NCBI RefSeq assembly: GCF_024653915.1
Contig: NZ_JANLGY010000001.1
Location: 1 to 64,000, forward strand
Direction of reading: 5' to 3'
DNA length: 64,000 nt
From: Sulfuricaulis sp.
Lineage (GTDB): Bacteria > Pseudomonadota > Gammaproteobacteria > Acidiferrobacterales > Sulfurifustaceae
In this document: positions 17,820 to 35,250 of the stretch, piece after piece
How positions within the stretch are numbered: the first letter of the stretch is position 1
Layout of the letters: each line of letters opens with the position of its first letter
Made by a program: the position numbers and the translations under genes
Notes under the pieces: generated by a model
What the model was told of the DNA's origin: nothing
Database searches by the model: none
The model's input: the letters and a program-made list of their open reading frames with translations, nothing else

Positions 17820-20465
17820 ATGCAGCAGACTGTGACGACCGCGCCGTACTGCAACCCCTTCTGGGTCAAGATTTTCCCGTTCCTGCGCTGGTGGCCGATG
17901 GTCACACGCGCGACCGTCAAGACCGATTTCATCGCCGGCCTGACCGGCGCCGTCGTGGTCCTGCCGCAGGGCGTCGCCTTCGCCATGATCGCCGGGCTGC
18001 CGCCGGTCTACGGCCTGTACACCGCCATGGTCCCGGCCATCATTGCCGGCCTGTTCGGCTCCTCGCGCCATCTCATTTCCGGCCCCACCACCGCGATCTC
18101 GATCGTGGTGTTCGCGGCGGTTTCAAAATTCGCCGAGCCCGGCAGCGCCAAGTTTATCCAGCTGGCGCTGACGCTCACCTTTCTCGCCGGGGTGTATCAG
18201 CTGGTGCTCGGCCTGGCGCGCATGGGCGCGCTGGTCAACTTCATCTCGCACTCGGTGGTGGTCGGCTTCACCGCCGGCGCGGCGGTGCTGATCGCCACCA
18301 GCCAGCTCAAGCACTATTTCGGCATGCACATCCCCTCGGGGGAGTCGTTTCTGCACACCTGGCGCGACCTGATCGCGCAGCTGCCCGAAACCAACCTGTA
18401 CGTGACCGGCATCGCGACCCTGACCCTGGCCACCCTGATCGTGCTCATGTGGTTCAAGCCGCGCTGGCCGGTGATGCTGATCGGCATGGTGCTCGGCAGC
18501 CTGGCCGCGGCCTTCGCCGGCGGCGAGAGCGAGGGCATCAAGCTGGTCGGCAAGCTGCCGTCGGAACTGCCGCCGCTCAGCATGCCGGACCTGCATCTGG
18601 CCGCGCTCAAGCAGCTCGGCAGCGCCGCGCTCGCCGTGGCCATGCTCGGTCTGGTGGAGGCGGTGTCGATCGCGCGTTCGGTGGCCTCGAAATCCGGCCA
18701 GCGCATCAATGGCAACCAGGAGTTCATCGGGCAGGGCCTGGCCAACGCCGTCGGCAGCTTTTTCTCGAGCTACGCCTCTTCCGGCTCCTTCACCCGCAGC
18801 GGCCTGAATTACACCGCCGGCGCGGTCACCCCGCTGTCGGCGGTCTTCGCCGCGATATCGCTGGCGCTGATCGTGCTGCTGGTCGCGCCCCTGGCCGCGC
18901 ACCTGCCGATCGCCGCCATGGCGGCCGTGCTGGTGGTGGTGGCTTACCGGCTGATCGACTTCCATCACATCAAGACCATCATCTCGACCAGCAAGCGCGA
19001 GACCGCGGTGCTGGCGACCACGTTCTTCGCCACCCTGTTCGTCGAACTCGAGTTCGCGATCTACGTCGGCGTAATGCTGTCGCTGATCATCTACCTGATG
19101 CGCACCGCGCAACCGAGGGTCGCCGTCACGGTACCGGACCCGAATACCCAGCACCGCAATTTCGTCAGCGACGCGAAGCTCCCGGAGTGCCCGCAGCTCA
19201 AGGTCGTCCGTATCGACGGCTCGATCTATTTTGGCGCCGTCGACCATATCGGCGAGCGGATGCACAGCTTCGCCGAGGCCAACCCCGCGCAGAAGCACCT
19301 GCTGGTGGTCGGCACCGGCGTCAACTTCATCGACCTGGCCGGCGCCGAACTGCTGGCGGCAGAGTCGCGCCGGCGGCGCGGACAGGGTGGCGATTTGTAC
19401 CTTGCCAAGATCAAGCCCGAAGCCTGTGAAACACTGCGGCGCGGCGGCTTCCGCGACCTGATCGGCGCTGACAACATCTTCCCCGGCAAAGCCAGCGCCA
19501 TTGCCAATATCTTTCAGCGCCTCGACCACGCGATCTGTGCGCGCTGCGACAAGCGCATTTTTGGCGAATGCGCGCAGGTTCGCCCGATAGCGCCCGGCAC
19601 CGAGGCACCCGCGGCCCCGGAATTCGGCACCCTGCCGCGTGTCGAACGCCTGCTCGTGGCGAGCGATGATTCCGAGTACAGCGCCGGCGCTATCCACGAG
19701 GCCCTGCGCATCGCCAGGAAGAGCGGCGCCCGGGTGCGAGTGATCCACCTGATCCCACGCGCCGATAGCGAGCTGACCACGGGTATCGGGGAGATTCCGG
19801 AACCGCTCCTGGCGCGGGCGCGCACGCATCTCGACGATGTCGAACGCGAGGCGACAGCCGCCGGCGTCGCTTGCGACACTGAAGTCATTTACACGAGCCT
19901 GCGTCTGTATCAGGAGATCGTCAATCAGGCCGACCAGATGAAGGCCGATCTCATCGTCATGGGTCGGCGCGGGCGACGCGGGCTGGCGCGCGTACGTCTC
20001 GGCCAGGCGACCGCCAAGGTGATCGGCCATGCACACTGCGCTGTGCTGGTCATGCCGCGCAACACCGAGATCACCGGACAGCGCCTGGTGCTCGCCACGG
20101 ACGGTTCAGTCTATGCCGATGCCGCCACTTCCATGGCCGGCAGTCTCGCCAAGATATTCGCGGCACCGGTGTCGACATTGTCGGTGACGCTACCGAGCCA
20201 GTCGGACCGGCGCCACGAAGAAGCCCGTGTCGCGGCCAATCGCGCCGCCGCGTTCCTCAGGAGCCACGAGCTCGATGCGGAAGCGGTGGTGTACCACGGC
20301 CGTCCCGACGAGGTCATCGTCGAAACCGCGATTGCGAAAAAGGCTGACCTGATCGTGATCGGCAGCCATGGTCGCACCGGTCTCGATCGCGTCATGCTTG
20401 GCAGCGTCTCCGAACGCGTGATCGACGCCGCCTCGACCGCGGTGCTGGTCGCCAAGCTTTCCTGA
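17820..20465 (+). CDS. SulP-family anion transporter with STAS and two C-terminal UspA domains
   Basis: 881 residues. The SulP membrane domain (about 15-440) shows PQGVAFAMIAGLPPVYGLY and the QEFIGQGLANAVGSFFSSY block. A STAS domain follows (about 455-560), then a Cys motif CARCDKRIFGEC near 572, and two universal-stress-protein domains (about 602-745 and 750-881). The second USP has the full ATP-binding pattern GSHGRTGLDRVMLGS; the first has Gln where Ser/Thr is expected (GRRGRRGLARVRLGQ). SulP members move sulfate, bicarbonate or other anions by proton or sodium symport; the substrate here is not decided by sequence. The USP pair suggests nucleotide-dependent control. Confidence 0.88.
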   Translation: MQQTVTTAPYCNPFWVKIFPFLRWWPMVTRATVKTDFIAGLTGAVVVLPQGVAFAMIAGLPPVYGLYTAMVPAIIAGLFGSSRHLISGPTTAISIVVFAAVSKFAEPGSAKFIQLALTLTFLAGVYQLVLGLARMGALVNFISHSVVVGFTAGAAVLIATSQLKHYFGMHIPSGESFLHTWRDLIAQLPETNLYVTGIATLTLATLIVLMWFKPRWPVMLIGMVLGSLAAAFAGGESEGIKLVGKLPSELPPLSMPDLHLAALKQLGSAALAVAMLGLVEAVSIARSVASKSGQRINGNQEFIGQGLANAVGSFFSSYASSGSFTRSGLNYTAGAVTPLSAVFAAISLALIVLLVAPLAAHLPIAAMAAVLVVVAYRLIDFHHIKTIISTSKRETAVLATTFFATLFVELEFAIYVGVMLSLIIYLMRTAQPRVAVTVPDPNTQHRNFVSDAKLPECPQLKVVRIDGSIYFGAVDHIGERMHSFAEANPAQKHLLVVGTGVNFIDLAGAELLAAESRRRRGQGGDLYLAKIKPEACETLRRGGFRDLIGADNIFPGKASAIANIFQRLDHAICARCDKRIFGECAQVRPIAPGTEAPAAPEFGTLPRVERLLVASDDSEYSAGAIHEALRIARKSGARVRVIHLIPRADSELTTGIGEIPEPLLARARTHLDDVEREATAAGVACDTEVIYTSLRLYQEIVNQADQMKADLIVMGRRGRRGLARVRLGQATAKVIGHAHCAVLVMPRNTEITGQRLVLATDGSVYADAATSMAGSLAKIFAAPVSTLSVTLPSQSDRRHEEARVAANRAAAFLRSHELDAEAVVYHGRPDEVIVETAIAKKADLIVIGSHGRTGLDRVMLGSVSERVIDAASTAVLVAKLS

Positions 20466-21161: not shown

Positions 21162-23111
21162 GTGGATCTGGCAACGGCAACCAATTTCATTCCGCTCAAC
21201 GCGCTCGACGTAACCTATCTTCTAGTCGTCGGTTTCATCGGCGGCCTGGTCAGCGGTTTCATCGGATCCGGCGGCGCCTTCGTGCTCACGCCGGCCATGA
21301 TGAGCATGGGCGTGCCCGGCATCGTCGCGGTGGCCTCCAACATGTGCCACAAGTTCCCCAAGGCCCTGGTCGGCGCCATCAAGCGCGCCAAGTACGGTCA
21401 GGTGGACGTGAAGCTCGGGCTCGTGGTCGGCACCTCGGCCGAGGCCGGGGTGCTCTATGGAGCGCACATCCAGCAAATGATTCATGACAGCTTCGGCGAT
21501 GCCGGTTCGAACCTGTATGTCAGCCTCGCCTTCGTCGTCTCTCTTGGCGTCATAGGCAGCTACGTGCTGTGGGACGCATTGAAAATGCGCCGCGACACCG
21601 GCGACGAACCGGAAAAGGTCGCGCGTCTCGCCCGCTGGGTCCAGTCGATCCATATCCCTGGCACGATGGTTTACTTCAAGAGCCTCAATGCCCGCGTCTC
21701 GGTCCTGTTTACCATCCCGCTTGGATTCGCCACCGGCATGCTCGCGGCGACCATCGCCGTAGGCGGCTTTATAGGTGTCCCGGCCATGCACTACGTGCTC
21801 GGGGCGCCCGCGCTCATGGCCTCCGCCACCGAACTGGTAACCGCCTTCGTCATGGGCGTAGGCGGCACGATGAAGTTTTCCTGGAGCGGGCTGGTGGATA
21901 TACGCCTCGCCATGATCATTCTTGCCGGGTCCCTGTTCGGCATCCAGCTCGGCGCGATCGGCACCACCTATGTCAAGCCGCACATGATCAAGATGGTCAT
22001 GGGCGTGATCATGATACTGGTGCTGGTCTCGCGCGCGATCGCCATCCCCGTCTATCTTTCCGAGCTGGAGCTCATCGAGCCGCTGGCGCCCCATCTGCCC
22101 GGCGCCCTGAGCAACATCAGTTTCGTGGTGCTGATTGGCGCGCTGGCGGCCGGCGCGGCGATCGTATTCGCGGCGCTGTGGAGCGGCATCAGCGCCTCAC
22201 GCCGTGAGGCGGCACTGGCCACCGCAGCGGACGTGGCATTCGCGCCGGACACGGTGGCAGCTCCGGCCAGCCCGCAACTGTCACCGGTCGGCCGCTTCGA
22301 GCGATTCCTGCTTGCCTCCGACGGCTCGGAGTACAGCGACGGCGCCGTGCGCGAAGCCCTGCGCATGGCGAGCAAGTGCGGCGCCCGCGTGCGCGCGGTC
22401 AACGTGGTCGCCGGCGGCGACGCCGAACTTTACGCCATGGGTGAACAGCTGATCACCAAGGAGCTGAATTCCGCCCGCGCTTGCCTCGACGATGTGCACC
22501 TGCTGGCATCGTCCGCCGGCGTGGCCTATGAGAGCGAGGCCACCCAGGGCAACCAGGTTTACCAGGAAATCGTCAGTCAGGCGGAAAAAATGCAGGCCGA
22601 TCTTATTATCATGGGCCGGCGTGGGCGCCACGGATTGGCGCGGCTGATGGTCGGTCCAACGACCGTGCGTGTCATCGGCCACGCGCGATGCAATGTGCTT
22701 GTTGTCCCGCGTCTTGCGAAAATCTCCGGACAGCACTTCGTCGTGGCTTCCGACGGTTCACGCTTCGGCGACACCGCCGCGCACACGGCGGCGCGGCTCG
22801 CAAAACTGTACGACTCACAGGTCACCGTGGTCTCGGTCACCCGGCCGGAACACAGCGAAGAGCGGCGTCACGAAGCACGCCAGATCGTGAACCGGCTCAT
22901 TTCCTTCCTGAAGCAGGAAGGAGTCAAGGTGGAAGGCGTCGTCCCGCACGGCCGGCCCGACGAAATGATCGTCAAGACCGCGAACGAAAAAAACGCGGAT
23001 TTGATCATTATCGGCAGTCGTGGACGCACGGGCCTGGAGCGGGTTCTGCTGGGCAACACATCGGAGCGCGTCATCGACCAAACCCAGTGCGCCGTGCTTG
23101 TCGTCAAGTAG
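21162..23111 (+). CDS. TauE/SafE-family anion exporter with two C-terminal UspA domains
   Basis: 649 residues from GTG at 21162 with AGGAAG upstream. The membrane part (about 1-345) has the family features GFIGGLVSGFIGSGGAF and a second half with GFATGMLAATIAVGGFIGVP. TauE/SafE proteins export sulfite, sulfoacetate or related organic or sulfur anions. Two USP domains follow (about 375-505 and 515-649). Their loops are GRRGRHGLARLMVGP and GSRGRTGLERVLLGN, so the Ser/Thr after the last Gly is missing from both. The USP pair closely resembles that of the SulP protein at 17820, suggesting a shared regulatory module. Confidence 0.87.
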   Translation: MDLATATNFIPLNALDVTYLLVVGFIGGLVSGFIGSGGAFVLTPAMMSMGVPGIVAVASNMCHKFPKALVGAIKRAKYGQVDVKLGLVVGTSAEAGVLYGAHIQQMIHDSFGDAGSNLYVSLAFVVSLGVIGSYVLWDALKMRRDTGDEPEKVARLARWVQSIHIPGTMVYFKSLNARVSVLFTIPLGFATGMLAATIAVGGFIGVPAMHYVLGAPALMASATELVTAFVMGVGGTMKFSWSGLVDIRLAMIILAGSLFGIQLGAIGTTYVKPHMIKMVMGVIMILVLVSRAIAIPVYLSELELIEPLAPHLPGALSNISFVVLIGALAAGAAIVFAALWSGISASRREAALATAADVAFAPDTVAAPASPQLSPVGRFERFLLASDGSEYSDGAVREALRMASKCGARVRAVNVVAGGDAELYAMGEQLITKELNSARACLDDVHLLASSAGVAYESEATQGNQVYQEIVSQAEKMQADLIIMGRRGRHGLARLMVGPTTVRVIGHARCNVLVVPRLAKISGQHFVVASDGSRFGDTAAHTAARLAKLYDSQVTVVSVTRPEHSEERRHEARQIVNRLISFLKQEGVKVEGVVPHGRPDEMIVKTANEKNADLIIIGSRGRTGLERVLLGNTSERVIDQTQCAVLVVK

Positions 23112-23183: not shown

Positions 23184-25343
23184 ATGATCCATAAATTGCG
23201 ACTCCCGTTCAGTTTGCAACGATTCCTGCCGTTCCTGGCCTGGATCGGCGAGATCCGCAACAGCCAAGTGCTGCGTGCCGACCTGATTGCCGGAATCACC
23301 GTAGCGCTGGTTCTTGTCCCGCAATCCATGGCGTACGCGCAGCTCGCCGGGCTGCCGGCCTATTACGGGCTCTATGCGGCGTTCTTGCCGCCCATGGTCG
23401 CCGCGCTGTTCGGTTCCTCGCGCCAGCTCGCCACCGGCCCGGTCGCCGTGGTGTCGCTGCTCACGGCCGCGGCGCTGCAACCGATCGCGGCAAGCGGCAG
23501 CCCGGGCTACGTGGCTTATGCCATCACCCTGTCGCTGTTCGTCGGCCTGTTTCAGCTCGGCCTGGGACTGCTGCGGCTCGGCGTGGTGGTGAATTTCCTT
23601 TCGCACCCCGTGATCATCGGCTTCACCAATGCCGCCGCGATCATTATCGCCACTTCGCAGCTCGACAAGATATTCGGCGTGCGCGTTGAAAGCGCCGAAC
23701 ATCATTACGAAACCGTGTGGAATACGATAGTAGCCGCCGGCCATCAGATGCACTGGCCGACATTCTTCATCGCTTCGGGCGCGTTCGCCATCATGATTGT
23801 TTTGCGGCGGATCGACCCGCGCATTCCCAACGTGCTCATCGCCGTCGCCGTCAGCACGACACTCTCCTGGATCATCCGCTTTGAGCACATCGAGACGGCC
23901 GATATCGCCCAGTTCGAAAACAAGTCGGTGCAGCTGGTGGTGCGCGACGAAATCGCGCTCACGCGCGAGATTCCGGAGCTCGACAAGGAGATACTCGACG
24001 CGGAGACGCAGTATCGTCAAACGCTCTCCCGGTTCGGCACCGACAACTCACGCACCCTGCTCGCCCAGCACGCCTACGACACGCTGAAGCTCAAGCGCGA
24101 GCGACGCATCAAGAGCGTCAAAACCGATATCGAAGAAATCAAGAAAATCCGTTTCGATCACGTGCCGGGTCCAGGGGACGCACTGGGCCGGTTCTACCTG
24201 CATGGACACGCGCCGCCGGGCGCCGTGGTCGACGGACGGCTGTGGCGCATCCGCAGCGTTGACGGGGAAAAGCTGGTCATGAACGGCGGCGGCAACGTGG
24301 TCGGTAGCATTCCCAGCGGCCTGCCGTCGCTGGCGCTGCCGAAGCTCGACTTCGGCGCCATGTTGCAGCTGCTCTCAGCGGCGATCACCATTTCGCTCAT
24401 CGGCTTCATGGAGGCAATTTCGATCGCCAAGGCCATGGCCACCAAGACGCGCCAGAAACTGGACGCCAACCAGGAACTGATCGGTCAGGGGCTGGCCAAT
24501 ATGGCCGGCAGCCTTGCGCTGAGTTATCCCACTTCCGGTTCATTCTCGCGCTCCGCAGTCAACATCAACGCCGGCGCCGTAACCGGGTTTTCCTCGGTGG
24601 TTACCAGCATCATTGTCATCATCACCCTGCTGTGGCTGACACCGCTGCTGTACCATCTGCCACAGGCGACCCTGGCGGCGGTCATCATGATGGCGGTGGT
24701 TGGCCTGATTAACGTCAAGGCTATTCAACATGCCTGGAAGGCGCAACGTCAGGATGGCGTCGTTGCCGTAGTCACGTTCATGCTGACACTGGCGTTCGCA
24801 CCGCACCTGGACAAAGGCATACTGATTGGCGCCGGCCTCGCCCTGATGCTCTATCTTTACCGCACCATGCAGCCGCGCGTGGCGGTGCTGGCGCGCCACC
24901 CGGATGGGACCCTGCGCGACGCGGAGATGTTCGGCCTCGACACCTGCAAGAACATCACCATGATCCGCTTCGACGGTTCGCTCTATTTCGCCAACACCGG
25001 CTATTTCGAGGACAAGATCCAGGAGCGCGTTGCCACCAAGCCCGAACTCAAATACGTGATCGTGCTGGCTGACGGCATCAATCAGGTAGATGCCACCGGC
25101 GAGGAAATGCTTTCGCATATGAGCGAGCGGCTGCAAGCCGGAGGCATCGAGATCTTGTTCGCTGGCGCGAAAAAACAGGTGCTGGACGTATTCCAGCGCA
25201 CCGGTCTGTATCAACATCTCGGCGCCGAGCGCTTCTTCCGCACGGAAGAGCAGGCGCTGGATCATGTCTGGAAAAAACTCGGCAACAATCACGAAGTGGA
25301 TTGTCCGCTCAATATCGTGTGTCCGGTCGCGCCAGCGAAGTAG
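23184..25343 (+). CDS. SulP-family anion transporter with STAS and a coiled-coil insertion
   Basis: 719 residues. N-terminal SulP half with VPQSMAYAQLAGLPAYYGLY; C-terminal half with QELIGQGLANMAGSLALSY; STAS domain from about residue 589 to the end (IRFDGSLYFANTGYF). Between the two membrane halves, residues about 231-384 form a large polar region with a predicted coiled coil (ELDKEILDAETQYRQ, LKLKRERRIKSVKTDIEEI) where SulP proteins usually have a short loop. There is no USP domain, unlike the first SulP. Substrate may be sulfate or bicarbonate. It follows the TauE gene by 72 bases. Confidence 0.88.
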   Translation: MIHKLRLPFSLQRFLPFLAWIGEIRNSQVLRADLIAGITVALVLVPQSMAYAQLAGLPAYYGLYAAFLPPMVAALFGSSRQLATGPVAVVSLLTAAALQPIAASGSPGYVAYAITLSLFVGLFQLGLGLLRLGVVVNFLSHPVIIGFTNAAAIIIATSQLDKIFGVRVESAEHHYETVWNTIVAAGHQMHWPTFFIASGAFAIMIVLRRIDPRIPNVLIAVAVSTTLSWIIRFEHIETADIAQFENKSVQLVVRDEIALTREIPELDKEILDAETQYRQTLSRFGTDNSRTLLAQHAYDTLKLKRERRIKSVKTDIEEIKKIRFDHVPGPGDALGRFYLHGHAPPGAVVDGRLWRIRSVDGEKLVMNGGGNVVGSIPSGLPSLALPKLDFGAMLQLLSAAITISLIGFMEAISIAKAMATKTRQKLDANQELIGQGLANMAGSLALSYPTSGSFSRSAVNINAGAVTGFSSVVTSIIVIITLLWLTPLLYHLPQATLAAVIMMAVVGLINVKAIQHAWKAQRQDGVVAVVTFMLTLAFAPHLDKGILIGAGLALMLYLYRTMQPRVAVLARHPDGTLRDAEMFGLDTCKNITMIRFDGSLYFANTGYFEDKIQERVATKPELKYVIVLADGINQVDATGEEMLSHMSERLQAGGIEILFAGAKKQVLDVFQRTGLYQHLGAERFFRTEEQALDHVWKKLGNNHEVDCPLNIVCPVAPAK

Positions 25344-26891: not shown

Positions 26892-28919
26892 TTGTCGCCT
26901 CTAACACTCGCCTATCTGGCCCTCATCAGCGCCCTGGCCTCCGGGATCATCGCGTTGGGAGCGGACCGTTACCCCGCCCTGTTGCGCTATGGCTCATCCA
27001 TTCTGCTCGGCCTGTGCGGTCTGCTGGCGGTCATCACCGGTTTGTGGGCCATGATCGACGAAGCACCCACGAAAGATTTGCTCGCGCTCGGCCTGCCGTG
27101 GCTGAAGTGGCACCTGCGACTGGATGCGCTCTCCGGATTTTTCTTTGGCGTCGTCGGGATACTCGTGTTTGCCGTCAGTCTGTTTGCCCCCGGCTACCTG
27201 CGCGAATATACCCACCGGAAAAACCAAAACGCACTTTCGGTGCTCGGCCTGTTCACGGGTCTGTTCATCCTGGGCATGCTCCTGGTGCTGCTCGCGGACG
27301 ACGCTTTTGTCTTCATGATCTCGTGGGAGTTGATGTCGGTCTCGAGTTATTTTCTGGTCGTGTATCAGCATCAGCACGCCGCCAACCGGCGCGCGGCATT
27401 TCTGTACCTGCTCATGGCGCACATCGGCGGTCTGGCGATACTTCTGGGTTTCGGCGTGCTCGCCGGTTTTGGCGGCGGGTTTACTTTCGGTGCCATGCGC
27501 GCGGCGGAACTTTCCGCCACCTGGGCCTCGATCGCGTTCGCGCTGGCTTTCTTCGGCTTTGGCATGAAGGCCGGCATGGTGCCGCTGCATGCGTGGCTGC
27601 CGGAGGCGCATCCGGTGGCGCCCTCGCATATCTCGGCACTGATGAGCGGCGTCATGCTGAAGGTAGCCATCTACGGACTGATCCGTTTCACCTACGATCT
27701 GATCGGCGATATTCAGTGGCAGTGGGGCTTGGTCATGCTGGTCATCGGTTCGGCATCCACCCTGCTTGGCGTGCTGTACGCGATGCTGCGCAACAATCTC
27801 AAGCGCCTGCTGGCTTACAGCTCGATTGAGAATATCGGCATCATCCTCTCCGGTCTCGGCCTGTCCATGATTTTCATCGGCACCGGCCACAAGATTCTGG
27901 GCGTGATTGGATTGATCGCGGCGCTTTATCACGTCCTCAGCCACGCGCTGTTCAAGGGCCTGTTGTTTCTGGGCGCCGGCGCCATCGCGCATGCCACGCA
28001 TGAATACGATCTCAATAACATGGGCGGCCTGATCCGGCGCATGCCGCAGACGTCGGTCTTTTTCCTGATTGGGTGCATGTCCATTGCCGGCATACCATTG
28101 CTCAATGGCTTCGTCTCGGAATGGCTGACGTTCCAGACCGCCTTGCAGGCACCGGTGCTCGAGAGCGGCGTGCTACGCAGCATCATCCCGGTGGCGGCGG
28201 CGGTGCTGGCGCTGTCGGCCGCGCTCGCGGCCGCCTGTTTCGTCAAGGTCTACGGCGTCGCCTTCCTGGGGCAGGCGCGCAGCCGCCACGCGGCGCGGGC
28301 GCGCGAGGTTGATTTCGGCATGCGCGCCGCCATGGGGTTGCTCGCTTTCTTGTGCGTGGTTTTCGGAATTTTTCCCTCGACGGTGATCAGTATTATCGAT
28401 GCGGTTCCCAACCTGCTTCTGGGGGCCGGGCCTCCCAGCGCCACGGCGCAGGGCTGGTTGTGGCTCACGCCGATTTCGCCCAAGGTGGCTTCCTACTCCG
28501 CGCCGCTGGTGTTCGTGGCCATCATTATATTTGCGTTGATCAGTTATCTGGTGCTGCGCCGGCGCGCGGTGGACATCCGGCGCGGTCCCGCCTGGGACTG
28601 CGGTTTCGGCTCGCTCAACTCGCGCATGCAGTATACCGGCACCGCCTTTTCCATGCCGATCCAGCGCATCTTCGCGCCGGTCTGGGACTTGAAAGAGGAA
28701 ATCGAGGAAACGAAAAATTCCGCGCAACCATTGCGCACCGAGGGCATGCGCCATCAGATGCAGGCGCTGGACCGGTCCTGGTCGCGCGTCTATGAGCCGA
28801 TTGGCCGCCTCGTGCTGCTGGCGGCGCGCCGCATCGGCCGCATCCAGACCGGCAGCATTCACACCTATCTCGCGTATTCCTTCTTTACGCTGATCCTGCT
28901 GTTGTGGGTGGTGACATGA
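26892..28919 (+). CDS. hyfB: Hydrogenase-4 component B / NuoL-like proton-pumping subunit
   Basis: 675 residues, matching the usual HyfB length, from TTG at 26892. A multi-pass antiporter-type (Mrp/NuoL/M/N) protein with the conserved GFGMKAGMVPLHAWLPEAHP block, LLAYSSIENIG and LYHVLSHALFKG, i.e. the Lys and Glu/His residues of the proton channel. The C-terminal part (about 560-640) has WDCGFGSLNSRMQYTG, typical of HyfB/HycC rather than NuoL. First gene of a tight operon (ATGA overlap with the next). The subunit would translocate protons across the inner membrane. Confidence 0.92.
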   Translation: MSPLTLAYLALISALASGIIALGADRYPALLRYGSSILLGLCGLLAVITGLWAMIDEAPTKDLLALGLPWLKWHLRLDALSGFFFGVVGILVFAVSLFAPGYLREYTHRKNQNALSVLGLFTGLFILGMLLVLLADDAFVFMISWELMSVSSYFLVVYQHQHAANRRAAFLYLLMAHIGGLAILLGFGVLAGFGGGFTFGAMRAAELSATWASIAFALAFFGFGMKAGMVPLHAWLPEAHPVAPSHISALMSGVMLKVAIYGLIRFTYDLIGDIQWQWGLVMLVIGSASTLLGVLYAMLRNNLKRLLAYSSIENIGIILSGLGLSMIFIGTGHKILGVIGLIAALYHVLSHALFKGLLFLGAGAIAHATHEYDLNNMGGLIRRMPQTSVFFLIGCMSIAGIPLLNGFVSEWLTFQTALQAPVLESGVLRSIIPVAAAVLALSAALAAACFVKVYGVAFLGQARSRHAARAREVDFGMRAAMGLLAFLCVVFGIFPSTVISIIDAVPNLLLGAGPPSATAQGWLWLTPISPKVASYSAPLVFVAIIIFALISYLVLRRRAVDIRRGPAWDCGFGSLNSRMQYTGTAFSMPIQRIFAPVWDLKEEIEETKNSAQPLRTEGMRHQMQALDRSWSRVYEPIGRLVLLAARRIGRIQTGSIHTYLAYSFFTLILLLWVVT

Positions 28920-29863
28920 TTAGCTGGCTGCTGGCACTTGCCCAAACGCTTTTGTTCATCGCCATGGCGCCGTTCCTGCTTGGCTGGATCAAGCGCGTCA
29001 AATGCCACATGCAGAACCGCGCGGCGCCGTCGCTGTGGCAGCCCTACCGCGACCTCGCCAAACTGTTCCGCAAGCACGTGGTGATGGCGGAGCAGGCCTC
29101 GTGGATCTTCCGCGCCACGCCCTACATCGTGTTCGGCGCCACCGTGCTCTGCGCCGCCGTGGTGCCGCTGGTGGCGGTGAACCTGCCAACGGCTGCCATT
29201 GCCGACGTCATTGTGCTGGTGGCTTTCTTTTCGCTGGCGCGCTTTTTCACGGCGCTGGCCGGCATGGACGTCGGCACCGCCTTTGGTGGCATGGGCTCCT
29301 CGCGTGACATGATGATTGGCGCGCTCGCCGAACCTGTCTTGCTGATGGCGGTGTTCACGATGGCGATGACGGCCTCCACCACCAACCTGTCGGAGGCCAC
29401 GACGTACACGTTGAACAGCGGATTGGTCCTGCGGCCTTCGTATATCTTCGCGATGCTGGGGCTGATGATGGTGGCGGTGGCGGAAACCGGGCGCGTGCCG
29501 GTGGACAACCCGGCCACGCACCTGGAGCTGACCATGGTGCATGAGGCCATGATCCTGGAATACAGCGGCCGCCATCTGGCGCTGATCGAATGGGCCGGCC
29601 AGATCAAGCTGATGATTTACATGGTGCTCATTGCCAATATCTTTTTCCCCTGGGGCATCGCCACTGAGTTGGAGGCGAACGACCTTGCCGTGGGCCTGGT
29701 CGCCATCGCCGGGAAGCTCGTATTGCTCGGCGTCGTGCTCGTTACCTGGGAAACCGTGATGGCCAAGATGCGTTTGTTCCGCGTACCACAGTTTCTGGGC
29801 TTCGCGTTCCTGCTGAGCCTGCTCGGCATGCTGACGCACGTTGTGTTAGAGACGGGAGGCTGA
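28916..29863 (+). CDS. hyfC: Hydrogenase-4 component C / NuoH-like membrane subunit
   Basis: 315 residues from ATG at 28916 in an ATGA overlap with hyfB; an in-frame GTG 12 bases earlier is less likely. About eight membrane segments, with the family block GRVPVDNPATHLELTMVHEAM holding the acidic residues that line the quinone or electron-transfer interface in NuoH/HyfC. LWQPYRDLAKLFRKH near residue 45 is also typical. It anchors the hydrophilic HyfG/HyfI-like module to the membrane. Confidence 0.92.
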   Translation: MISWLLALAQTLLFIAMAPFLLGWIKRVKCHMQNRAAPSLWQPYRDLAKLFRKHVVMAEQASWIFRATPYIVFGATVLCAAVVPLVAVNLPTAAIADVIVLVAFFSLARFFTALAGMDVGTAFGGMGSSRDMMIGALAEPVLLMAVFTMAMTASTTNLSEATTYTLNSGLVLRPSYIFAMLGLMMVAVAETGRVPVDNPATHLELTMVHEAMILEYSGRHLALIEWAGQIKLMIYMVLIANIFFPWGIATELEANDLAVGLVAIAGKLVLLGVVLVTWETVMAKMRLFRVPQFLGFAFLLSLLGMLTHVVLETGG

Positions 29864-29864
29864 T

Positions 29865-30542
29865 ATGGATTTTACGCAACTCAGTCTCTACGATCAGGCG
29901 ATTCTGCTGTTCGCGGCGCTCATTCTTTTCACGTCATTTATCATGCTGGCGCAGCCGCGCATCGTGCCGTTGATTCATGCATTTGCCTGGCAGGGCGTGT
30001 TGCTCGCCGTTACGACGACGCTCGTGGCCTACGCCACGGATCACCCGCATCTCTACATTTCGGCCGGCATGACCTTCGCGCTCAAGGCCCTGTTGATTCC
30101 CTGGATGCTGCACCGGCTCGCGGTCCGGCTCAAGATTCATCGCGATATCGAGGCCGTGACGTATCCGTCCCTGACGCTGCTGGCCGGCGCCAGCCTCGTC
30201 GTCTTCAGCTATTACGTCGCGATCCCCATCGTGCAGCTCTCGGCGCTGGTGGCGCGCAATGCCATCGCCATCAGCATCGCCATCATTCTGCTCGGCATGC
30301 TGATGATGATCACGCGCAAGAAGGCGATCTCCCAGGTGGTCGGCTTCATGTCTATCGAAAACGGATTGTTCTTTGCCGCGGTGGTGTCGACCTACGGTAT
30401 GCCGATGGTGGTCGAACTGGGCGTCGCCTTCGACGTGCTGGTAGCCGCGATTCTCTTTGGCGTGTTCTTCTTCCAGATGCGCGAGTCCATCGATTCGCTC
30501 GACGTGGACCGGCTTAACCGGCTGCGGGAGGGGGACGAATGA
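29865..30542 (+). CDS. hyfE: Hydrogenase-4 component E-like membrane subunit
   Basis: 225 residues, GGGAGG before ATG at 29865. Seven or so membrane segments; the NuoK-like C-terminal part contains GFMSIENGLFFAA with the conserved membrane Glu, and the tail FFFQMRESIDSLDVDRLNRL is typical of HyfE. HyfE is found in Hyf-type but not Hyc-type complexes, so the operon belongs to the larger antiporter-rich class. Overlaps the next gene by ATGA. Confidence 0.9.
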   Translation: MDFTQLSLYDQAILLFAALILFTSFIMLAQPRIVPLIHAFAWQGVLLAVTTTLVAYATDHPHLYISAGMTFALKALLIPWMLHRLAVRLKIHRDIEAVTYPSLTLLAGASLVVFSYYVAIPIVQLSALVARNAIAISIAIILLGMLMMITRKKAISQVVGFMSIENGLFFAAVVSTYGMPMVVELGVAFDVLVAAILFGVFFFQMRESIDSLDVDRLNRLREGDE

Positions 30543-32005
30543 CGGCGGTGTGGCTGATCCTGCTGATTCCTCTTGTCGGCATCGTCTTGATGGCGCTCAT
30601 TGGCCATACCCGCGTGGCCGGCTGGTTCAACGTCACCATGTCCGCCGTGAGTTTTGTGGTTTCGGTGTGGCTGGCGCTGATCGTGTACGCGGATGGGCCG
30701 CTGCTGTCCCCGAGCCGCATGCTTTATATCGACGCTTTCAATGTTTACCTTGTCACGCTCACGGCCTTCGTGGGACTGACCACGGCGATCTTCTCGCGTC
30801 CCTACATGCAGCACGAAGTTGAAACGCGACAGATCAGCAAGGGCCGCATGCGGTTGTATCACTCCATGTACCAGGGCTTCATGTTCGCCATGCTGGCGGC
30901 GCTCACGACTAATAATGTCGGCATCCTGTGGGTGGCGATGGAGGGGGCAACGCTGGCCACCGTGTTACTCGTCTCACTTTACCGCACCCCGGAAGCAGTG
31001 GAGGCCGCCTGGAAGTATTTCATACTCTGCGGTGTCGGCATTGCCCAGGCGCTGTTCGGCACGGTGCTGCTGTTTTTCGCGGCAGAGCGTGTCGTGACCG
31101 TGCGCGATGACGCACTGCTATGGAATGTGTTGTACAGCTCCGCCGCGCAGCTGGAGCCGACGGTGCTGACACTGTCGTTTGTGTTCCTGCTCGTGGGCTA
31201 CGGTACCAAGGTGGGCCTGGTGCCGCTCCACAACTGGCTGCCGGACGCGCACTCCGAGGGCCCCACGCCGATGTCGGCAATTCTTTCCGGATTGCTGCTC
31301 AATGTCGCGCTGTACGCGCTGGTGCGCGTGAAAATGATCGTTGACGGTTCGCTGCAAAACCATCTGGCGGGATACTTGATGATGGCCTTCGGCCTGCTGT
31401 CGTTCACGGTCGCGTGCCTGTTCCTGCATCGCCAGCGCGACATCAAGCGCATGTTCAGCTATTCGTCCATCGAGCACATGGGATTGATGACTTTCGCTTT
31501 TGGTATCGGCGGACCGATCGCCACGTTCGGAGCGTTGCTGCACATGACGGTGCACTCGCTTACCAAGTCCGCCATTTTCGTCACGGTTGGTCACGCGGCC
31601 CAGATTGCCGGCACCCAGTCCATTGAAAAAATCCGCGGGCTGATCCGCACTCAGCCTACCGTCGGCTGGGGGTTGTTGATCGGCACCATGGCCATCGCCG
31701 GGTTTCCGCCGTTTGGAGTGTTTACCAGCGAATTCCTCGTGCTCGTCGCCACCATGAAATCCTGGCCGTGGCTGACCGTGCCGCTGCTCGTGGGGCTGGC
31801 GGTGGCATTCGCCGGTTTGTTCCGGCACATCCATCCGATGGTGTACGGCGATCAGCCGGAAGGCCAGGTGCCGGTGAAGGCCAACATGTTGCCGGTGATG
31901 ATCCAGCTCGGGCTGGTGCTCTGGCTGGGCATCGCCATTCCCGTGTTTCTGTCGAAATGGTTTGAGCAGGCCACGGTGCTGATTTCCGGGAGTTCACCGC
32001 TATGA
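30539..32005 (+). CDS. hyfF: Hydrogenase-4 component F-like proton-pumping subunit
   Basis: 488 residues, slightly shorter than E. coli HyfF. Second NuoL/M/N-type antiporter of the operon: GYGTKVGLVPLHNWLPDAHS, KYFILCGVGIAQALFG and FSYSSIEHMGLMTFAFG are the conserved channel blocks. With HyfB it gives at least two proton-translocating subunits. There is no HyfD gene, so the set is reduced compared with E. coli Hyf. Coupled by overlaps on both sides (ATGA with hyfE and with hyfG). Confidence 0.92.
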   Translation: MTAVWLILLIPLVGIVLMALIGHTRVAGWFNVTMSAVSFVVSVWLALIVYADGPLLSPSRMLYIDAFNVYLVTLTAFVGLTTAIFSRPYMQHEVETRQISKGRMRLYHSMYQGFMFAMLAALTTNNVGILWVAMEGATLATVLLVSLYRTPEAVEAAWKYFILCGVGIAQALFGTVLLFFAAERVVTVRDDALLWNVLYSSAAQLEPTVLTLSFVFLLVGYGTKVGLVPLHNWLPDAHSEGPTPMSAILSGLLLNVALYALVRVKMIVDGSLQNHLAGYLMMAFGLLSFTVACLFLHRQRDIKRMFSYSSIEHMGLMTFAFGIGGPIATFGALLHMTVHSLTKSAIFVTVGHAAQIAGTQSIEKIRGLIRTQPTVGWGLLIGTMAIAGFPPFGVFTSEFLVLVATMKSWPWLTVPLLVGLAVAFAGLFRHIHPMVYGDQPEGQVPVKANMLPVMIQLGLVLWLGIAIPVFLSKWFEQATVLISGSSPL

Positions 32006-33585
32006 CTGCCGACTGGCTGACTGCTTTTCTCGGCAGGCTCACGACGCGGGAGATTCAGGCGCAGGAGGAGCCGGCGGCCGGTTTGGCACCGGCTCACCTG
32101 TTGACCGTCCAAGCCGATGACTGGGGACAATTTGCCCATGAGGCTAAAAACTGGGATTGCCGCTGGGTGGCGGCCTGGGGCGAGGACAGCGGGGATGACC
32201 TCATCGCCAATGCCTGTTTTGAAAAAGACGGCACCTATCTGGTGGCGCGCACGCACGTCAAGCGCGCGACTCCCATTTTGCCCTCGCACACGCCTTATTT
32301 TCTGGCGGCCGATCGCCCCGAGCGCCACATGCAGGACATGTTTGGGATTGCCTTCATGGATCATCCGGATCCGCGCCGTTGGACGCGGCACCGGGCGTGG
32401 AAGGAGTCCGAGTATCCGCTACGCAAGAATTTTCCCGCGGCAGGAAATCCGCTTGCCCAGACACCCCCGAACGACAACTACCGCTTCCTTTTCGCGCACG
32501 GCAGCGGTGTGTACGAGATTCCCGTTGGCCCGGTGCACGCGGGCATCATCGAGCCGGGACATTTCCGTTTTCAGGCCGTGGGCGAGACCGTGCTCAACCT
32601 GGAAGAGCGGCTGGGCTATGTGCACAAAGGTATCGAGAAAATCGCGGAAGGACGCGACGCCAAGGGATTGGCGCGTCTCGCGGGACGCGTTTCCGGTGAC
32701 TCCACCGTGGCGCACGCCTGGGCCGCCTGCATGGCGATGGAAAAGGCGGCAGGCATCGAAGTGCCGCCGCGGGCGCTGGCGCTGCGCGCCATCATGGCCG
32801 AGCGTGAGCGCGTGGCCAATCATCTGGGCGACATCGGTGCGATTTGCAACGACGTTTCATTTGCCTTTGCCTTTTACCAGTTCGGACGCTTGCGCGAAGT
32901 CTGGCAGCGCGTATCGCGCGAGACCTTCGGTCATCGCTTCATGATGGACCGTATTGTTCCGGGAGGCGTGCTTTCGGATCTTGACGATCAGGCGTCGGGA
33001 TCGATGCAAAAGCAGATGGTATCTCTGAAAAAAGAACTCGATGGCCTGTATAACATCATTGACGACTTGCCCTCGCTCGAAGACCGGCTCGATACCACCG
33101 GACACCTCAGCCCGGAAACCGCCAAGGCCTTCGGGGCGCTGGGCTACGTGGGACGCGCCAGCGGCATACCGTACGACGTGCGCAAGGATGCGCCGTATGC
33201 GCCCTACGACCGTTTGAGCGTCGAGGTGCCGGTATTTCAAGACGGTGACGTCGCCGCGCGTGTCAAGGTGCGGGCAGAGGAAATCCTGGCGTCATTCAAG
33301 CTGATTGAAACACTGATCGAATATTTGCCCCCCGGGTCTGTACGCGCTGACTGGAAACCTGCGCCGGCGGGCGCCGAAGGCCTGGGATTCACTGAGGGTT
33401 TCCGTGGTGAAATTCTTGCTTACGTGCGCTTCGGCGAAAACGGACAGATCGCGCGCTACTTCCCGCGCGATACGAGCTGGCTGACCTGGCCGACGCTCGA
33501 GAAGCTGATACGCGACAACATCGTCCCGGATTTTCCGGTATGCAACAAATCCGTGAACGGCTCTTATTCTGGACACGATTTATAG
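32002..33585 (+). CDS. hyfG: HyfG-like NuoC-NuoD fusion large subunit lacking Ni-Fe cysteines
   Basis: 527 residues. The N-terminal NuoC-like part (to about 165) has FLAADRPERHMQDMFGIAF and HPDPRRW. The C-terminal NuoD/hydrogenase-large-subunit part starts near 175 (GPVHAGIIEPGHFRF, LEERLGYVHKGIEK). The first Ni-Fe motif R-x-C-G-x-C is R229-V-S231-G-D-S234, both Cys replaced by Ser. The C-terminus reads DFPVCNKSVNGSYSGHDL in place of DPCxxC. The subunit therefore cannot bind a normal Ni-Fe centre and should not be called a hydrogenase. Such complexes are known as energy-converting-hydrogenase-related (Ehr); their electron donors are largely undefined. Confidence 0.9.
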   Translation: MTADWLTAFLGRLTTREIQAQEEPAAGLAPAHLLTVQADDWGQFAHEAKNWDCRWVAAWGEDSGDDLIANACFEKDGTYLVARTHVKRATPILPSHTPYFLAADRPERHMQDMFGIAFMDHPDPRRWTRHRAWKESEYPLRKNFPAAGNPLAQTPPNDNYRFLFAHGSGVYEIPVGPVHAGIIEPGHFRFQAVGETVLNLEERLGYVHKGIEKIAEGRDAKGLARLAGRVSGDSTVAHAWAACMAMEKAAGIEVPPRALALRAIMAERERVANHLGDIGAICNDVSFAFAFYQFGRLREVWQRVSRETFGHRFMMDRIVPGGVLSDLDDQASGSMQKQMVSLKKELDGLYNIIDDLPSLEDRLDTTGHLSPETAKAFGALGYVGRASGIPYDVRKDAPYAPYDRLSVEVPVFQDGDVAARVKVRAEEILASFKLIETLIEYLPPGSVRADWKPAPAGAEGLGFTEGFRGEILAYVRFGENGQIARYFPRDTSWLTWPTLEKLIRDNIVPDFPVCNKSVNGSYSGHDL

Positions 33586-33588
33586 ATC

Positions 33589-34113
33589 ATGCTGCGTATA
33601 CTTGGAAAAATTCAACGTATCGGCATCGTCACCGAGCCTCTGCCGAAAATTGACGAGCCCGCGCTCGAAGAGGTGGGTGCGCAGATCAAGGCAAAGATCG
33701 GCGAGATGTTCAGCGGCAGCCTGGCGATCCGTCAGGTGGACGCCGGATCGTGCAATGGCTGTGAGCTGGAGATCCACGCGTTGAACAATCCTTATTATGG
33801 TATCGAGCGTTTCGGTGTGCATTTCGTCGCCAGCCCGCGCCATGCCGACATGCTGCTCGTGACCGGGCCGGTGTCGCGCCACATGGAGGCGGCGCTGCGC
33901 CGTACTTATGATGCCACGCCGGAGCCCAAGCTCGTGATTGCCGTCGGCGAATGCGGCGCCAATGGCGGTGAATTTGGCGTGAGCTATGCTTCGTGCGGCG
34001 CGGTGTCGAACGTCATTCCGGTGGATGCGGTCATCCGTGGCTGCCCGCCGACACCACTGGATCTGATGCGCGGGATACTACAAGCCGTCGGGGAACTGCC
34101 TGCCCTCAAATGA
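33589..34113 (+). CDS. hyfI: HyfI/NuoB-like subunit with N2-type [4Fe-4S] site
   Basis: 174 residues. Cysteine pattern C55-x2-C58 (SCNGCELE), C122 (GECGANGG), C152 (RGCPPTP) is the proximal (N2) cluster set of NuoB and small hydrogenase subunits. It starts 3 bases after hyfG. The electron route from this cluster would normally lead to quinone or Ni-Fe; here the partner has no Ni-Fe site. No ferredoxin-type (HyfH/NuoI or HyfA) subunit is encoded nearby, so the electron input is unknown. Confidence 0.92.
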   Translation: MLRILGKIQRIGIVTEPLPKIDEPALEEVGAQIKAKIGEMFSGSLAIRQVDAGSCNGCELEIHALNNPYYGIERFGVHFVASPRHADMLLVTGPVSRHMEAALRRTYDATPEPKLVIAVGECGANGGEFGVSYASCGAVSNVIPVDAVIRGCPPTPLDLMRGILQAVGELPALK

Positions 34114-34188: not shown

Positions 34189-35250
34189 ATGGATACCCAC
34201 AATAAACCCATCGCGCAGCGCATCGAATGGCTGATGGAGCATGCGCACCGGCACGCGGAGGCCTTTACCAGTTCCGAGGCCTTTCTTGCCCGGCAACGCT
34301 ATCTGGCGCAGCACACGTCGGCGGTGGCGGCGCTCAAGTGCATGGATGGGCGGATAAATCTTTCTGTTGCCACCCATACGCCGCTTGGCATCATCCAGCC
34401 TTTTCGCAATCTCGGTGGAATGTTCGATCTCGGTTGGCCCCACCTGGGCGAGGTACTCGCCAGTTATGTGCATGACAAGGTCGCCACCGGGCGCCGCGTG
34501 CTGCTGCTCATCACTTATCACTATTCGAAAAGCGACAAACAGCGGGGCTGCGCCGGTTTCAACTTCGACACCGAAGCCGCGCGTGCACATACTTATGCCA
34601 TCAAGCGTCAGGTCGAGCATGTCTTCGGCGCCAATCACGACACGGTCTATCCGATCGTGTGCGGCTTCGAAACCGACGAGGACGCGCTGGTGCTGCACGG
34701 CACCAACGGCGAGCCGATGGATGTGTCACGTCTTGCCGCACGCGACCAGGAGGGTTTGCGCCCGGCGCTGGAAAAAATATTCCCGGATATGCCGAGCCAG
34801 GTGCGGTTCGATCTGGAGCCACTGGTGCTCGGCAACCAGGCGCGTATCGCCGAGGTGCGCAAGCTATCGCGCACGCTGGATGTGGAACACCGCGAGTGGA
34901 TGATCTGCGTCGGGCGCGGCTTCGATTTTTTGCACATGCCCAACCTCGCGCTGATCATTGGCCCTTACAGCCCGAATCTTGCCGAGCCGATCAGCATTGC
35001 CGGCGGCATTATCGAGAACAACATGCGCGCGAGGCGGATACCCGACGACGGTTTCCTGCTGCTGGCCTCGGTGCCCTATGCCGAAATCGGCGTGGACCGC
35101 GCGCGTGCCGAACTGAAATCGCGTTTTCTTTCGAAGTTCGCCGCCGATGTCATCCGCAGCGGACATCCGTCGCTCGCGGCCAAGATGCAGGTGCGCACCG
35201 CCGTGCTTGATTGGCGTTCTCGTACTCTGGAGACTATCAACGCAGAATAG
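34189..35250 (+). CDS. Beta-carbonic-anhydrase-like zinc protein (possibly CsoSCA-related)
   Basis: 353 residues from ATG at 34189, 75 bases after hyfI. It has a Cys-x-Asp-x-Arg motif (C51-M-D53-G-R55) followed by PLGIIQPFRNLGG, as in beta-carbonic anhydrases. The second half of the zinc site would be H111 and C121 (HYSKSDKQRGC), ten residues apart rather than the usual three; carboxysomal CsoSCA also has a widely spaced His/Cys pair. No signal peptide, so it is cytoplasmic. Same strand and close spacing place it with the Hyf-like operon. Activity as carbonic anhydrase is an inference from these residues. Confidence 0.6.
   Translation: MDTHNKPIAQRIEWLMEHAHRHAEAFTSSEAFLARQRYLAQHTSAVAALKCMDGRINLSVATHTPLGIIQPFRNLGGMFDLGWPHLGEVLASYVHDKVATGRRVLLLITYHYSKSDKQRGCAGFNFDTEAARAHTYAIKRQVEHVFGANHDTVYPIVCGFETDEDALVLHGTNGEPMDVSRLAARDQEGLRPALEKIFPDMPSQVRFDLEPLVLGNQARIAEVRKLSRTLDVEHREWMICVGRGFDFLHMPNLALIIGPYSPNLAEPISIAGGIIENNMRARRIPDDGFLLLASVPYAEIGVDRARAELKSRFLSKFAADVIRSGHPSLAAKMQVRTAVLDWRSRTLETINAE

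Follow-up and report, generated by a model that had tools for sequence, protein, structure and literature searches.

A CsoSCA2-type carbonic anhydrase gene beside an Ehr operon in Sulfuricaulis, and the recurrent linkage of its family to Ehr or DAB genes

The stretch of DNA analysed here (the window) comprises 64,000 nt of Sulfuricaulis sp. (contig NZ_JANLGY010000001.1, positions 1–64,000), and all coordinates without a prefix refer to it. A SulP transporter (17820–20465; PF00916, PF00582) and a TauE/SafE transporter (21162–23111; PF01925, PF00582), both fused to Usp domains, are encoded on the plus strand, followed by a further SulP family transporter, SulP2 (23184–25343; TIGR00815, 462 bits), and by a CNNM/CorC protein (from 25434) that lies between SulP2 and the first of six Hyf-like genes. 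These specify, in order and on the same strand, a HyfB-like subunit (26892–28919; NuoL/M-type proton-channel subunit; PRK06521, 838.8 bits, cut-off 667), a HyfC-like subunit (28904–29863; NuoH-type; PF00146, E 1.4e-38), a HyfE-like hydrogenase-4 membrane subunit with a NuoK-like end (29865–30542; PRK11492, 85 bits; PF00420, E 1.6e-4), a HyfF-like subunit (30539–32005; NuoN/M-type proton-channel subunit; PRK06458.1-5, 769 bits, cut-off 543), a HyfG-like subunit (32002–33585; NuoC/D-type; PF00329, PF00346) and a HyfI-like subunit (33589–34113; NuoB-type; PF01058, E 9e-29). The gene for a 353 aa carbonic anhydrase (CA) of the CsoSCA2 type (34189–35250, plus strand; carboxysomal-CsoSCA-like, epsilon/beta class) begins 75 bp past HyfI. 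The original prediction had linked a CsoSCA-like protein to a proton-pump operon, and this is borne out by its position directly downstream of a complex-I-like membrane operon. Each of the two Usp fusions carries two C-terminal Usp domains, and a homologue of the SulP fusion adjoins CsoSCA2 in another locus (L055).

The HyfB-C-E-F-G-I operon has the same subunit make-up and order as Hydrogenase-4/FHL-2 and Ehr complexes (HyfBCEFGI), but differs from Hydrogenase-4/FHL-2 in having no NiFe ligands, HyfA/HyfH or formate dehydrogenase. In the HyfG-like protein the L1 region reads GRVSGD instead of CxxC, and the C-terminus is FPVCNKSVNGSYSGHDL, with the L2 pair missing. The L1 region is alike in 66 aligned HyfG-like rows, none of which has a CxxC pair there or a C-terminal NiFe pair, and no electron-entry subunit, formate dehydrogenase or ferredoxin-type subunit is found in the operon. 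The HyfI-like protein retains conserved cysteines for one FeS cluster, as read from its sequence. Because the subunits are Hyf-like but without NiFe ligands, the operon is identified from its predicted products as an Ehr (energy-converting hydrogenase-related) complex, in which two channel subunits are of the NuoL/M type and a single FeS subunit is NuoB-like. A group 4 NiFe hydrogenase (Hyf/Hyc) or formate hydrogenlyase is ruled out by the missing ligand pairs, formate dehydrogenase and ferredoxin-type subunit. A promoter and terminator scan between HyfI and CsoSCA2 gave no site, and the arrangement is compatible with co-transcription of CsoSCA2 with the Ehr operon. A conserved tie to the 2-hydroxyacid dehydrogenase/PPSR pair downstream was also considered and rejected: most relatives showed no such pair beside their CsoSCA2 gene, and in L177 it lies a few kb away.

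The CsoSCA2 reading frame starts with the ATG at 34189, and relatives with 64–92% identity align from the same start. The first zinc ligand and the Asp/Arg dyad form the motif C51-x-D53-x-R55 (34339–34353; C51 at 34339–34341, D53 from 34345, R55 from 34351), which matches the CxDGR of carboxysomal CsoSCA. The other two zinc ligands, H111 (34519–34521) and C121 (34549–34551), match YHxSxxDxxxxGCAA of CsoSCA. All five residues had been named in the original prediction, as had the distance of ten residues from His to Cys, and both are confirmed in the translation. Its remark that CsoSCA is also wide-spaced holds too, the corresponding distance being 11 in a reference set of seven carboxysomal-type CsoSCAs (509–550 aa) from the same class as the window organism. 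C51, D53, R55, H111 and C121 are kept in all 88 relatives that cover those positions, and R73-N74-L75-G76-G77 is likewise invariant in a 37-sequence alignment in which relatives are 64–87% identical to the window protein. Since the five residues are conserved without exception, and the same blocks occur in carboxysomal-type CsoSCAs, the motif set is, by these alignments, real and well past chance. The aligned zinc ligands are confined to the first half of the protein and are lacking from the second, and about 40 residues precede the catalytic domain.

Three further residues that do not belong to the known zinc site stand out in the alignments: of 89 CsoSCA2 sequences, every one has Cys158 and Cys240, and 88 have His249. 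The aligned carboxysomal CsoSCAs have no counterpart at those positions, and a structural or redox role is possible.

In profile searches there is no Pfam match at E ≤ 1, including none to DabA or to PF00484, and the sole NCBIfam match is to the carboxysomal CsoSCA model TIGR02701 (33.2 bits, E 2.5e-8), well short of its curated cut-off of 241 bits. An AlphaFold2 model built from the alignment (mean pLDDT 89) matches the CsoSCA structures 8thm, 9g4t and 2fgy over 329–337 residues, i.e., across the full chain (residues 1–353), with Z scores of 30.8, 29.5 and 29.2, and a Foldseek search concurs. The next best structure is the double-domain beta-CA of Porphyridium (Z 19.1), and single-domain beta-CAs score about 10 or below. 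The CsoSCA-like character that had been predicted is thus upheld by both profile (E 2.5e-8) and fold (Z 29–31), and the clear match to an unrelated family that had been named as a refutation did not turn up, this fold and the motifs being those of CsoSCA. The protein does not conform to a classical beta-CA, as it has no Pro_CA profile match and has H-x9-C in place of HxxC. It shares with carboxysomal CsoSCA (2FGY, 8THM, 9G4T) the whole-chain fold, CxDGR, YHxS...GCA and a single active site per pseudo-dimer, but is shorter (353 aa versus 509–550 aa), has an H–C spacing of 10 rather than 11, and is only 16–19% identical by structural alignment. It also lacks the long N-terminal RuBisCO-binding/oligomerisation domain, and there is no cso operon and no BMC gene in the window genome. 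The two-halved CsoSCA fold with zinc ligands in one half, the complete set of catalytic residues and the short N-terminus, away from any carboxysome locus, identify the window protein by sequence and model as CsoSCA2, so the protein itself is not new.

Non-carboxysomal homologues of CsoSCA were named CsoSCA2 in 2022 (PMC9164163), and that review describes a short N-terminus, an active and a defunct half, and a location outside carboxysome loci; its alignment includes a Sulfuricaulis limicola protein, and CsoSCA2 is also reported there from heterotrophs. The window protein agrees with the published ones: it has the same length and short N-terminus, one half active and the other defunct, and the same active-site residues, and it too is not encoded in a carboxysome locus. 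In 2024 the same cluster was called ‘non-cso’, with neighbours that are ‘often’ annotated as [Fe-Ni] hydrogenases or permeases (PMC11086599), a description given there in general terms only. At the protein level there is no difference from the published CsoSCA2, and DAB linkage or Ehr–DAB arrays are not mentioned in the passages of these two papers that were consulted. DAB is described as a PMF-driven, one-way CO2 hydratase in which the beta-CA-fold protein DabA sits on the NuoL-like DabB (PMC13144422). Within the literature searched, which left out subscription papers and preprints, nothing beyond PMC11086599 was found on Ehr together with DAB or CsoSCA2.

The window genome (completeness 99.78%) gave no match to either of the two CA families searched for, PF00484 (beta-CA) and PF00194 (alpha-CA). 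From the lack of matches to these two families, CsoSCA2 is likely to be an important CA of the cell. The absence of carboxysome genes from the window had been pointed out before; no BMC shell protein family is matched anywhere in the genome either, and a carboxysome encoded elsewhere is thereby rejected. One RuBisCO large subunit was found, which we take from its sequence to be form I, red-type(-like). There is no match to DabA (PF10070), so the genome does not carry the DAC/DAB system (DabA plus DabB). That system couples a beta-CA-fold protein to NuoL-like proton-channel subunits and adjoins CsoSCA2 or Ehr in relatives, whereas the Ehr operon encodes six subunits, one of them NuoC/D-like and another NuoB-like.

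The surroundings of CsoSCA2 were compared across public genomes, in which L-numbers denote loci and G-numbers denote genomes. Ehr genes lie 50 bp to 2.4 kb from CsoSCA2 in three lineages: Sulfuricaulis (the window, L004, L131 and L177), L003, and Thiobacillus (L038, L069). The nearest relative in the CsoSCA2 tree is L004, labelled Sulfuricaulis sp., with a protein 92% identical to that of the window. In Sulfuricaulis, CsoSCA2 follows HyfI on the same strand after a gap of 75–170 bp, and only there are CsoSCA2 and Ehr co-directional; the other Ehr- or DAB-linked loci are convergent or divergent. DabA is found less than 10 kb from CsoSCA2 in 13 distinct loci (L001, L009, L011, L018, L020–L022, L027, L032, L037, L070, L171 and L172), and NuoL/M-like genes lie between CsoSCA2 and DabA there. 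On the CsoSCA2 tree, several forks of which are weak, the Ehr-linked state changes at least four times and the DAB-linked state nine times, the DAB label also covering three loci (L010, L015, L023) with NuoL/M-like genes but no DabA in the fetched stretch. Within the genus of the window organism, G026 (= L001) has DabA and no Ehr, the window genome, G024 and G027 have Ehr and no DabA, and G025 has Ehr with neither CsoSCA2 nor DabA. A homologue of SulP2 lies directly upstream of HyfB at seven other loci from CsoSCA2 genomes (L003, L201, L206, L207, L214, L216 and L219). RuBisCO is found near Ehr in L132 (from the family of the window organism, 85% identical) and L219, and near Ehr or CsoSCA2 in L202. 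Many CsoSCA2 genes are solitary.

The DAB clusters of L001 (507–9758) and of the Thiodiazotropha loci L009, L018 and L021 have several NuoL/M-like genes around a DabA of about 1100 aa, and are not of the two-gene DabA–DabB form.

In two lineages the Ehr and DAB genes are contiguous. HyfB-C-E-F-G-I is followed by NuoM-DabA-DabB-NuoM-NuoM in one continuous, same-strand array in L200 (2528–19126), from Accumulibacter phosphatis, and in L201 (16–19130), from a betaproteobacterial MAG; both genomes carry CsoSCA2. The contig of L201 has CsoSCA2, two SulP genes, Ehr, DAB and a RuBisCO gene all within about 40 kb, and in L203 a NuoM-like end stands directly before HyfB. The continuous arrays of Ehr and DAB suggest a part in CO2 uptake for some Ehr complexes. 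According to the original prediction, the locus would be a new context for a CsoSCA-like protein. That claim stands in part: the kind of protein and some of its context were already published (PMC9164163, PMC11086599), and what appears from the gene maps to be new is the recurrent partnership of CsoSCA2 with Ehr or DAB together with the Ehr–DAB contiguity.

The association also extends to gene content. Among 50 CsoSCA2 genomes, DabA occurs in 20, Ehr in 25 and at least one of the two in 39; in a sample of 370 genomes of the class the counts are 95, 54 and 134. Fisher tests, which ignore kinship and compare differently sampled sets, give p = 2e-8 for either, 7e-8 for Ehr and 0.04 for DabA. Within the class sample itself, four of the seven genomes with a short CsoSCA2 have DabA or Ehr. 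Most Ehr operons of the class have no carbon-related neighbours: at about 40 of the 46 Ehr loci from genomes lacking a short CsoSCA2, no SulP, DabA, RuBisCO or CA gene was found within about 10 kb. At least one such gene occurs in 18 of 74 entries of the Ehr list versus 1 of 40 control stretches, which is not a fair test because the CsoSCA2 loci are part of that list, L177 with two entries. A universal link of Ehr to carbon is therefore unsupported; since most operons have no such gene nearby, carbon uptake need not be a property of Ehr complexes in themselves, which in general may do something else. We know of no settled function for Ehr complexes.

The position of CsoSCA2, repeatedly beside proton-channel complexes and bicarbonate-type transporters in unrelated bacteria, suggests a part in providing the cell with CO2 or bicarbonate. 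The reading that we favour, and hold to be moderately probable, is that CsoSCA2 is a reversible cytoplasmic CA belonging, with the SulP-type transporters and the NiFe-less Ehr complex, to one inorganic-carbon supply module in which Ehr stands in the place of DAB. CsoSCA2 would be a catalytically competent enzyme whose one zinc site (C51, H111 and C121 plus the D53/R55 dyad) lies in the N-terminal half, the second half having no zinc. The organism has form I RuBisCO and no detected carboxysome shell, and in its cytoplasm the enzyme would interconvert CO2 and HCO3-. The Ehr complex would most likely fill the role of the PMF-driven, CO2-hydrating DAB complex of relatives. With free RuBisCO, HCO3- accumulated by a DAB-like pump or by SulP would need conversion to CO2, which CsoSCA2 could carry out; the enzyme would thus either equilibrate the delivered inorganic carbon with CO2 for RuBisCO, or provide HCO3- for other carboxylations. 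Several features of the gene maps count against such a module, namely the solitary CsoSCA2 genes, the sulfate-assimilation neighbours in Accumulibacter, the varied orientation to Ehr or DAB, and the Ehr operons without carbon-related neighbours; SulP and TauE members may also transport sulfur oxyanions.

The solitary genes, the Accumulibacter copies beside cys genes, the occurrence in heterotrophs (PMC9164163) and the lack of alpha- and beta-CA family matches in the genome would all suit a simpler role, in which CsoSCA2 merely substitutes for the usual cytoplasmic beta-CA, beside genes that are there by chance or have no more in common with it than a low-CO2 regulon. We regard this as unlikely, though worth keeping in mind, given that linkage to DAB, Ehr and SulP recurs independently, that DAB or Ehr is commoner in genomes with CsoSCA2, and that some loci have another CA right beside CsoSCA2 (a beta-CA in L003, an alpha-CA-like protein in L058).

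A more intimate connection with Ehr can also be envisaged, in which CsoSCA2 docks on the complex as its catalytic subunit and proton flux through HyfB and HyfF drives one-way hydration of CO2. This would account for the Sulfuricaulis arrangement, where CsoSCA2 shares its strand with the Ehr operon and begins 75–170 bp past HyfI, a 3′ position that in L200 and L201 is held by a DAB cluster with another beta-CA-fold protein, DabA. It also fits a complex with proton-channel subunits but no NiFe site and no electron-entry subunit in the operon, and the swapping of Ehr and DAB as neighbours within one genus. On the other side, the majority of Ehr operons have no CsoSCA2 and the majority of CsoSCA2 genes are not co-directional with Ehr; in L200 and L201 DAB is complete, DabB included, which means that DabA could do without Ehr subunits; and CsoSCA2 also adjoins complete DAB clusters that have their own CA-fold subunit. 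The model of CsoSCA2 reveals no additional docking domain, and the active site appears to resemble that of a freely reversible CA. We therefore consider such docking quite improbable. If true, CsoSCA2 plus Ehr would join DAB (DabA–DabB) and the cyanobacterial NDH-1MS (CupA/B on NDH-1) as a third vectorial CO2-hydrating pump, assembled independently of them, with a multi-subunit complex-I relative driving a CsoSCA-type enzyme, and at least a subset of Ehr complexes would gain a function.

That SulP and TauE/SafE in the window and cysDN in Accumulibacter reflect sulfate or sulfite handling, with CsoSCA2 acting on another substrate, is very hard to credit, since the 16 loci with cys genes beside CsoSCA2 all fall within a single clade of the tree, the complete CA active site is conserved without exception, and DAB and RuBisCO neighbours favour carbon.

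For the inorganic-carbon supply module, the wider interest lies in a question raised in the 2022 review that named CsoSCA2 (PMC9164163), i.e., why such enzymes are so widespread and what role they have. The linkage of CsoSCA2 to DAB or Ehr, their exchange within a genus and the Ehr–DAB arrays offer a testable answer for CsoSCA2 and for a subset of Ehr, namely that carboxysome-less bacteria couple their carbon supply to membrane complexes that conduct protons.

Some individual loci deserve mention. In Accumulibacter (L034, L036, L056, L064 and others; about 10001–11070), CsoSCA2 is flanked by sulfate-assimilation genes of the cysN/cysD type and by an rRNA methyltransferase gene, mostly at distances of tens to some 200 bp. 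The CAs of other classes directly beside CsoSCA2 are located at L003:9218–9856 (beta-CA) and L058:7656–8399 (alpha-CA-like). A short, highly divergent homologue (L175:9463–10512, genome G123), with 34% identity and a long branch, keeps the catalytic residues and perhaps represents a separate subfamily. In L086 (1468–1626; G000:C5:179232–179345), a second CsoSCA2 gene survives as a remnant of 38 C-terminal residues before a purE-like ORF, about 17 kb from the RuBisCO gene (C5:161107).
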